Origin: Arthrobacter sp. MMS18-M83
Lineage (GTDB): Bacteria > Actinomycetota > Actinomycetes > Actinomycetales > Micrococcaceae
DNA: 64,000 nucleotides
Assembly (NCBI RefSeq): GCF_026683955.1
Contig: NZ_CP113343.1
Span: 620,001-684,000 of the forward strand
Reading direction: 5' to 3'
Positions 1-19,662 of this stretch are shown here, in pieces. A program made the translations under genes and the position numbers. Within the stretch, counting starts at the first letter, position 1. Every line of letters starts with the position of its first letter. Below the pieces are notes generated by a model that did no database searches, was not told where the DNA came from, and saw only the letters and a list, made by a program, of their open reading frames with translations.

Positions 1-872
1 ACGGAGAATCCGGTGCCGTCGTGGCATGCGGCTTCAGCTGCGGCCATCTTCATGGGCTGCTGTTCGAACATCAACTTGCCCTGCAGATCGCCCGTGAAGG
101 CGGTCCCGGCGAAGGAGATCATGGCAACGACGGCGCCGATCCGCAAGGAATTGATCCACACTTTGTAGTCTGCCTTGTCCCGTCCTGGGATGTTGGCTTC
201 CCCGGGAATGGCGCGGCCGTCCGCATCGACGGTGTCAATGCCGTCGTGGCGGCGCCGCCAGAGGTGGTACCACGCGATGCCCAGAAGGAACGCACCGGCG
301 ACGCCCAAAGCACCGAAGAGCGTGTGCGGCACAGCCACCAAGGCGGTGTTGTTGGTGAAGACGGCCCAGGCGTCGGTCATGACGGGGCGCCCGTTGACCA
401 TCTCGATGCCGACCGGGTGCTGCATCCAGGAATTGGCGACGATGATGAAGTAGGCCGAGAAGAGCGAGCCGATCACTGCGATCCAAAGGCACGCGAGGTG
501 GACGCCCCGCTTGAGCTGCTTCCAGCCGAAGATCCACAGCCCAAGGAAAGTCGATTCCACAAAGAACGCCAGAAGCGCTTCCAGGGCCAGGGGCGCGCCG
601 AAGATGTCTCCAACGAAGCGGCTGTACTCACTCCAGGCCATCCCAAACTGGAACTCCTGCACAATGCCCGTGGCCACGCCCATGATGAAGTTGATGAGGA
701 AGAGCTTGCCCCAGAACTTGGTCATCCGCAGGTATTCAACTTTTCCGGTGCGGTACCAAAGTGTCTGGATGACGCCCACAACGAGCCCCAGCCCGATGGT
801 CAGCGGCACCATCATGAAGTGGTAGACCGTGGTGATTCCAAATTGCCAGCGTGCGATTTCCAAGGCGTCCAT
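1..872 (-). CDS. cydA: Cytochrome bd ubiquinol oxidase subunit I, partial (C-terminus outside window)
   Basis: Subunit I of the cytochrome bd terminal oxidase, which oxidises quinol and reduces oxygen in the cytoplasmic membrane. The protein begins MDALEIARWQFG, including the conserved RWQFG and a nearby His (YHFMMVPLTIG) expected for haem b595 ligation. Further family blocks are visible: GKLFLINFIMGVATGIVQEFQFGMAWSEY split over residues 50-85, then FGAPLALEALLAFFVEST. About 290 residues of an expected 450-500 are present; the rest lies beyond position 1. It is transcribed away from a BlaI-type repressor gene, and two of the three shared dyads lie 43-84 bp upstream of its ATG. Confidence 0.96.
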   Translation of the reverse strand, partial: MDALEIARWQFGITTVYHFMMVPLTIGLGLVVGVIQTLWYRTGKVEYLRMTKFWGKLFLINFIMGVATGIVQEFQFGMAWSEYSRFVGDIFGAPLALEALLAFFVESTFLGLWIFGWKQLKRGVHLACLWIAVIGSLFSAYFIIVANSWMQHPVGIEMVNGRPVMTDAWAVFTNNTALVAVPHTLFGALGVAGAFLLGIAWYHLWRRRHDGIDTVDADGRAIPGEANIPGRDKADYKVWINSLRIGAVVAMISFAGTAFTGDLQGKLMFEQQPMKMAAAEAACHDGTGFS

Positions 873-914
873 GGCTGTCCTTATTATCCGGCTGCCCGCG
901 ATGCGGCGTCCATT

Positions 915-931
915 TTCTACGTTGTGTAGAA
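915..931. promoter_or_regulatory. Candidate BlaI-type operator, copy 1
   Basis: Perfect dyad TTCTAC-N5-GTAGAA. It is identical in both arms to the copies at 940-956 and 1028-1044. TAC/GTA-type dyads are typical of BlaI/MecI/CopY repressors, and a gene of that family starts at 1144. This copy is 43 bp from the cydA start, where a bound repressor would block cydA transcription. Binding is inferred. Confidence 0.7.
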
Positions 932-939
932 ACTTCTTC

Positions 940-956
940 TTCTACGCAGTGTAGAA
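940..956. promoter_or_regulatory. Candidate BlaI-type operator, copy 2
   Basis: Second perfect TTCTAC-N5-GTAGAA dyad. Its centre is 25 bp from that of copy 1, so the two sites form a closely spaced tandem pair upstream of cydA. Confidence 0.7.
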
Positions 957-1027
957 CAAATCCGTCCGATGTGGTCACCACTCTTCCAGCGGCGTAACAG
1001 TGCCGCAAGGACACGCCGCGCCGCATG

Positions 1028-1044
1028 TTCTACTTCACGTAGAA
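1028..1044. promoter_or_regulatory. Candidate BlaI-type operator, copy 3
   Basis: Third perfect TTCTAC-N5-GTAGAA dyad, 99 bp upstream of the blaI-like start and 88 bp (centre to centre) from copy 2. A further half-site (GTAGA) lies at 1062-1066. The position fits autoregulation of the repressor/peptidase operon. Confidence 0.7.
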
Positions 1045-1143
1045 TCGCGCTCCAAAAAGCGGTAGATTGATGGTGGAATGTTGGATCATCGCACTCCCCG
1101 GGCCTTATCGCGGCGGGGAACTGCGGAAAGTAGGGATGCATTG

Positions 1144-19308: not shown

Positions 19309-19662
19309 ATGAGTATTCTCTTCAACGTCCTGCTGTTCTTGCACATCGTCGGCGCAGCCATGATTGTGGGCTTCTGGATCGCCACCATGAAGCAGCCGAC
19401 CGTCCACCCACGTCAGCGGGATGGCGCATTCGTGCAGCTGATCACCGGCATTGCCATGATGGGAATCCTGCCCATGCTGCCCAATGCCCACCCTGATTAC
19501 TTCAAACTCGGTATCAAGTTCGCCATCGGCCTCGCCGTGGCCGTGCTCGCCGTCATTGGCTCGCGCAAGGTCAAGAAAGGCGAACCGGTCTCCACCGGCC
19601 TGGCACATGGCGTCGGCGGACTGGCCTTGATCAACATCGCCATCGCCACGATCTGGCAGTAG
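19309..19662 (+). CDS. Small membrane protein of unknown function
   Basis: A 117-residue protein with four hydrophobic segments, near residues 3-25, 40-58, 66-83 and 98-116. It starts MSILFNVLLFLHIVGAAMIVGFW, where His12 in the first segment is conserved-looking, and has a basic loop SRKVKKGE. No SD sequence is strong, and no family function is known to me. It lies alone between two terminators. Codon use matches its neighbours, so it is likely a native gene. Confidence 0.8.
   Translation: MSILFNVLLFLHIVGAAMIVGFWIATMKQPTVHPRQRDGAFVQLITGIAMMGILPMLPNAHPDYFKLGIKFAIGLAVAVLAVIGSRKVKKGEPVSTGLAHGVGGLALINIAIATIWQ

Follow-up and report, generated by a model that had tools for sequence, protein, structure and literature searches.

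A BlaI-type repressor and a membrane protease encoded beside cydA as apparent regulators of cytochrome bd, ATP synthase, heme and further respiratory genes in soil Arthrobacter and related bacteria

The window analyzed, a stretch of 64,000 bp from Arthrobacter sp. MMS18-M83 (NZ_CP113343.1, positions 620,001 to 684,000), opens with the 5' part of cydA, which is divergent from genes encoding a BlaI-type repressor and a membrane metalloprotease (Table 1). The full-length CydA measures 536 aa in the genome (locus L420); downstream of its gene lie a cydB-like gene and an ABC gene, both assigned by reading. The Penicillinase_R domain (PF03965, 72.8 bits) covers residues 4-125, i.e. most of the BlaI protein. 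Only one BlaI match is found in the genome; the protein is 97-98% identical to those of Arthrobacter terricola, A. bambusae and their neighbours, and its only solved relative by sequence is 2g9w (E 3.3e-15), which we take to be Rv1846c of M. tuberculosis.

Pairs of a BlaI-type repressor and a membrane protease are best known from penicillin resistance. The protease at this locus has three N-terminal and one C-terminal hydrophobic segments, and carries in this membrane scaffold the HExxH and ExxxD zinc motifs of the M56 family, residues H182, E183, H186, E223 and D227 being invariant in 35 sequences. The score obtained with Pfam PF05569 (29.8 bits) falls just under the curated cut-off of 31, while PF01435 (M48) matches above its own cut-off. 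Sequence searches against solved structures gave no match to the protease; a Foldseek search with the model of the protein returned BlaR1 as best match (E only 5.3e-3), the model aligning to residues 1-289 of BlaR1. The view, formed earlier by reading the sequence alone, that a penicillin-binding sensor is missing proved right, as the polypeptide stops after its last membrane helix, at residue 330, and no such Pfam domain was found.

Table 1. Features of the cydA-blaI locus and of a second site in the window
Feature	Position	Strand	Remarks
cydA, cytochrome bd subunit I, 5' part	3..872	-	Runs off the window; Pfam PF01654, E 7.4e-105
cydA promoter-like element TGGACG-18-GATAAT	883..912	-	Consensus scan alone, 9/12 matches
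Operator dyad 1 (putative), TTCTACGTTGTGTAGAA	915..931	.	cydA-proximal pair; perfect match, conserved
Operator dyad 2 (putative), TTCTACGCAGTGTAGAA	940..956	.	cydA-proximal pair; perfect match, conserved
Operator dyad 3 (putative), TTCTACTTCACGTAGAA	1028..1044	.	blaI-proximal; perfect match, conserved
blaI-type winged-helix repressor, 128 aa	1144..1530	+	Pfam PF03965, E 3.9e-20
M56/M48-like membrane metalloprotease, 330 aa	1537..2529	+	HENAH at residue 182, E223xxxD227; no C-terminal sensor domain
One-mismatch dyad, TGCTACGGCACGTAGAA	19271..19287	.	21 bp upstream of the 117-aa ORF
117-aa membrane protein, candidate regulon member	19309..19662	+	No NCBIfam match

Three perfect copies of the dyad TTCTAC-N5-GTAGAA reside in the gap between cydA and blaI. 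The sequence-only reading had described them correctly: the gap measures 271 bp, the conserved blaI start being backed by the BlaI alignment, and the spacing of 25 bp given for the cydA-side pair is the distance from start to start, 8 bp separating the two sites. Dyads with up to two mismatches number four in the window against 0.45 expected, and a count of four was attained in 0 of 100 shuffles. In an alignment of 47 gaps, conservation amounts to 100% at the 36 arm positions, 61% in the spacers and 52% in the remainder; the alignment includes the window and 46 of 80 loci found through BlaI, the 34 excluded being L313 (longer gap), L327 and L329 (blaI with no adjoining cydA) and the more distant L343-L373. 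The arms were thus found invariant in all the gaps aligned, and a lack of conservation, which would have spoken against the sequence-only reading, was not seen. A chance origin of the dyads was rejected on the basis of the shuffles, this conservation and a reversed-pattern control.

Seven perfect dyads are scattered in the 5.11-Mb genome, versus one match of the reversed control pattern. Besides the three in the cydA-blaI gap, four are located at a distance. One lies upstream of the flavohemoglobin gene hmp, which adjoins an Rrf2 regulator gene (both by Pfam), one upstream of hemQ-hemH (chlorite-dismutase-like protein and ferrochelatase, by Pfam). The third heads a cytochrome c biogenesis run encoding a phosphoglycerate-mutase-like (NCBIfam, below cut-off), a TlpA-type (by reading) and a CcdA-type protein (Pfam), with a divergent yceI gene (Pfam), and the fourth precedes a gene for a 118-aa membrane protein with no Pfam family. 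Sites with one mismatch are not enriched overall (15 dyads vs. 13 for the control) and were therefore counted only where conserved in relatives. Sites of this type are found upstream of the ATP synthase operon (atpI-like gene; perfect dyad in the relative G179, L193), of an ABC-ABC-ctaA-like run (ctaA by reading; perfect dyad at the ABC gene in G095 and G174), of sucC (perfect in G178), and of the 117-aa gene in the window (perfect in two relatives, G187, L259, and G123). One-mismatch sites at 723233, 1655063, 1857513 and 3045433 were dropped as likely due to chance or coding, a judgment made from reading frames only.

The nature of these neighbours bears on the idea, put forward for M. tuberculosis, that the system continues to respond to beta-lactams or wall damage and that the respiratory genes form a side branch. 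The available portions of PMC5473688 and PMC12565901 tie mycobacterial BlaI to blaC and to beta-lactam sensitivity. In Arthrobacter, however, the protease is devoid of a penicillin-binding domain, and inspection of the genes beside the seven perfect sites led to recognition of no beta-lactamase, sigC or wall-enzyme gene, so that this explanation seems unlikely.

Dyads recur at the same genes in different genera of the family. Among the matches listed, 119 perfect sites were placed in 24 family genomes (that of MMS18-M83, 5 of the 25 other genus members, 18 of other genera), the five genus members contributing only sites away from cydA and G022 two of its four. The genes cydA and blaI account for 37 sites, other respiratory, heme, NO or copper genes for 55, five of which are labelled solely by a divergent YceI gene; 21 are next to other labelled genes (118-aa protein 10, pyridoxamine-oxidase-like 5, 117-aa protein 2, 126-aa protein 2, Crp 1, PPK2 1), and 6 are unassigned. 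As the labels were partly drawn from the neighbours of the same sites, it is recurrence across genera, and not the total, that carries the argument, and target genes seen once weigh little. Perfect dyads are most recurrent at hemQ (16/24 genomes), hmp (13/24) and the 118-aa gene (10/24). Rarer targets in relatives, all Pfam-backed, are SURF1, sdhC, ctaC (COX2), a ctaB-like UbiA protein, hemA, sucC, CopC, CopD/CtaG and a qcrC-like cytochrome c.

In 19 of 30 family genomes (19/27 with BlaI, 0/3 without) the promoter of the ATP synthase operon contains a dyad that is perfect or deviates by one mismatch; in 16 of the 19 it reads TTCTAT-N5-GTAGAA. The element is absent in 8 of the 27 BlaI-bearing genomes; the reversed control was found at this promoter in none of the 30, never within two mismatches. 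Sites at blaI aside, most dyads lie 10-100 bp upstream of aligned starts, a position which fits repression.

The 118-aa membrane protein (L013:2040-2396 and relatives) matches neither Pfam nor NCBIfam families and, being among the commonest dyad targets, may be a candidate respiratory factor so far unrecognised. In family f15 (L112, L111) a BlaI paralog with its own dyads adjoins a gene of PepSY type (by reading); in G145, dyads are located downstream of a copper-ATPase-like gene; the two cases suggest a copper-linked sister circuit using the same operator. A dyad found in G184 (L268) at a Crp-type regulator gene would place a second regulator under BlaI. Universal-stress-protein-like genes, one of them Pfam-checked, adjoin the dyad in four genomes of family f6 (L094, L101, L103, L293).

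BlaI could alternatively regulate cydA and itself only, the distant dyads being due to chance or belonging to another factor. Two f14 genomes hold all four of their dyads, which are of the TAC(T/G)AC type described below, within the cydA-blaI gap, and a wide regulon is therefore not universal; the lack of overall enrichment of one-mismatch sites points the same way. The recurrence of perfect dyads at hemQ and hmp and the conservation of the ATP synthase dyads argue against such a restricted role, as do genomes in which cydA was not detected. A search for cydA in eight genomes found none in five, including G095, G137 and G193, all three of which retain blaI, the M56 gene and dyads, 15 dyads in one of them. 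A purely local circuit is accordingly held to be improbable, and a regulon extending beyond cydA is the preferred reading.

The presence of dyads tracks that of BlaI. All 26 genomes of the genus sample carry 6-9 perfect dyads (196 in total vs. 36 for the control). In the family sample (31 genomes) at least two dyads are found in 27/27 genomes with a BlaI ortholog and in 0/4 without; the 27 BlaI-bearing genomes total 139 dyads against 14 for the control, the four others have 0, 0, 0 and 1. One of the genomes counted as lacking the ortholog, G181 (L423), encodes a BlaI 42% identical and an M56 protein, and its sole perfect dyad lies upstream of cydA. At the order level (149 genomes) at least one dyad is present in 22 of 23 genomes with an ortholog, versus 4 of 126 without (p 3e-21), the identity cut-offs for orthologs (58% for the order, 51% for the family) having been chosen after viewing the gap in scores. 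No perfect dyad was found in the order genome G030, which has BlaI. The four dyad-bearing order genomes outside the ortholog set encode BlaI paralogs, which share a contig with a dyad and lie no more than about 3 kb from it.

Loci found through BlaI alone give a similar picture. In the best 80 of 570 confirmed loci, all from close relatives, dyads reside within 700 bp upstream of blaI in 80/80, and 215 dyads were counted upstream of blaI versus 2 in the other 930 kb. Within this set of 80, the 74 loci in which cydA adjoins blaI have three dyads (61 loci) or two (13 loci), the 6 with no cydA beside blaI exactly one, in blaI-proximal position. In G175 the cydABDC genes are located away from blaI and have a dyad pair of their own, blaI retaining one site. 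In G081 cydA is present, and neither a BlaI match nor a dyad upstream of cydA was found.

Analyses were extended to further actinobacteria. The gene order cydA-blaI-M56 is found at 9/9 further loci of the order and 11/11 class loci outside family f22, and at 0/19 f22 loci, class loci being the best 30 of 150 genomes with a match, each reaching 1.5 kb to either side. Family f22, presumed to correspond to Mycobacteriaceae, has BlaI proteins 68-94% like 2g9w. In the same best 30 of 150, a putative operator of a different type, TAC(T/G)AC-N5-GT(A/C)GTA, lies upstream of blaI at 15/19 f22 loci and 11/11 other class loci; one further f22 locus has an operator one base off. Two f22 genomes contain 11 TAC(T/G)AC-type sites versus 3 for the control. 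They include sites at blaI, at cydA (at a distance of 40 and 48 bp) and at the ATP synthase operon, Pfam having identified the cydA of one genome and the atpB of the other; no relation is apparent for the remaining five. In a BlaI tree rooted at midpoint, TAC(T/G)AC users (f14, f7, f38, f47, f57 and f22) group together (support 97/87), with TTCTAC users outside. Paralogs fall between the two clades without firm support, and strict orthology of the clades is not settled by the tree. A segment that we take to be the recognition helix of BlaI changes in step with the operator type, e.g. from AVTTVLTVLSRLEKK to AYTTVMTVLDRLAKK. Judging from the sequences, the predicted operator type follows the BlaI clade.

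These data also bear on the hypothesis that the dyads are read by a different regulator, a sensor of NO, heme or redox state, BlaI being merely one of the targets. The target set would suit an NO or heme sensor, and an Rrf2 gene adjoins hmp. Against this, dyads track BlaI, a site persists at blaI with no adjoining cydA, the order genomes outside the ortholog set have paralogs close to a dyad, and the operator type shifts with the BlaI clade, all of which makes a different reader very improbable. That the dyads work as RNA hairpins (attenuators) is hardly credible: each could fold into a 6-bp stem and one terminator-like element is found at 891-907, yet the arms are invariant in the aligned gaps, where paired changes would suit a hairpin, and dyads co-occur with BlaI.

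The reading which best accounts for the data, and which we consider quite probable on the sequence evidence, is that BlaI is the repressor of a respiratory regulon released by the M56 protease. The sequence-only reading had the pair control the bd oxidase. The link is strongly supported by the conserved arms, the co-occurrence of dyads and BlaI, and the operator type typical of each clade; the proposal was too narrow, as the bd oxidase is one of many respiratory and heme targets and BlaI is kept in the three genomes with no detected cydA. Because the same dyad precedes many respiratory genes in BlaI-bearing genomes, these genes appear to be under BlaI and M56 control. A BlaI dimer would bind the 17-bp dyad TTCTAC-R-NNN-Y-GTAGAA, where R and Y are favoured without being strictly required, within or beside promoters and in most cases 10-100 bp upstream of start codons. 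Predicted targets are cydA, the blaI-M56 genes themselves, the ATP synthase operon (imperfect dyad), hmp, hemQ-hemH and cytochrome c biogenesis genes, in relatives also other oxidase, bc1, succinate, heme and copper genes. The active site of M56, with no penicillin sensor, would face the cytosol as in BlaR1; disturbed respiration would activate the protease from within the membrane, and cleavage of BlaI would release the target set. Dimer binding, repression and BlaI cleavage are most likely, by analogy with the BlaI/BlaR1 family, from which we also infer the direction of control. The target list (bd oxidase, NO-removing globins, heme and oxidase assembly, ATP synthase) would fit a signal arising from impaired respiration or from NO better than one from wall damage; that M56 responds to respiratory disturbance is a guess.

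More tentatively, and with confidence slightly short of even, actinobacterial BlaI-M56 may be at root a system of respiratory homeostasis. The sensorless protease would gauge in the membrane the condition of the electron transport chain or of its heme-copper supply, and via BlaI set the levels of cytochrome bd and ATP synthase, in Micrococcaceae also those of much of oxidase and heme assembly, beta-lactamase control in mycobacteria being a later side branch.

That BlaI is linked to the bd oxidase and ATP synthase has been stated before, for both promoters of M. tuberculosis (PMC5473688, as far as its accessible text goes). According to the accessible part of PMC12565901, BlaI binds upstream of Rv1303, a gene of the ATP synthase operon, and lowers expression; the BlaI-atp link is repeated in PMC5874750, PMC7924339 and PMC8265638, and PMC11561320 lists blaI among induced regulators. 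Literature searches, most subscription papers being outside their reach, found no paper describing a TTCTAC dyad regulon. As far as the literature searched goes, the putative operator code, the wide heme/respiratory regulon predicted and the cydA linkage in several families are new. A regulator family filed under antibiotic resistance thereby gains a readable operator code and a target list, which suggest that running respiration is its older job in actinobacteria. Two questions become directly testable in harmless soil bacteria: which signal a sensorless BlaR-like protease perceives, and for what reason mycobacteria couple respiration to beta-lactam responses.

Among known systems, CopY-type copper repressors are related winged-helix proteins, and copper genes are among the dyad targets of relatives; the NCBIfam CopY model matches BlaI weakly, scoring 24.6 against a cut-off of 121.95. 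BlaR1-BlaI of S. aureus similarly combines a repressor with a cytosol-facing gluzincin membrane protease, and the step from HExxH to ExxxD is 41 residues in both proteins (H182-E223 here, H201-E242 in the accessible part of PMC9834060, which deals with BlaR1 topology and zinc motifs). Unlike BlaR1, the Arthrobacter protease has no C-terminal beta-lactam sensor, and predicted targets are respiratory genes, not blaZ/mecA. BlaI-BlaR of M. tuberculosis (Rv1846c-Rv1845c) differs in that Arthrobacter blaI adjoins cydA, the half-site is TTCTAC and not TAC(T/G)AC, and the predicted Arthrobacter regulon extends to hmp, to cytochrome c biogenesis and heme synthesis and to further genes, with no beta-lactamase target recognised beside the seven perfect sites. 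The two systems share a BlaI paired to an M56 protease free of an extracellular sensor, and the ATP synthase operon and, per the accessible text of PMC5473688, cytochrome bd among the targets; the same 6-N5-6 dyad geometry is found at blaI, cydA and the ATP synthase operon in the two presumed mycobacterial genomes.
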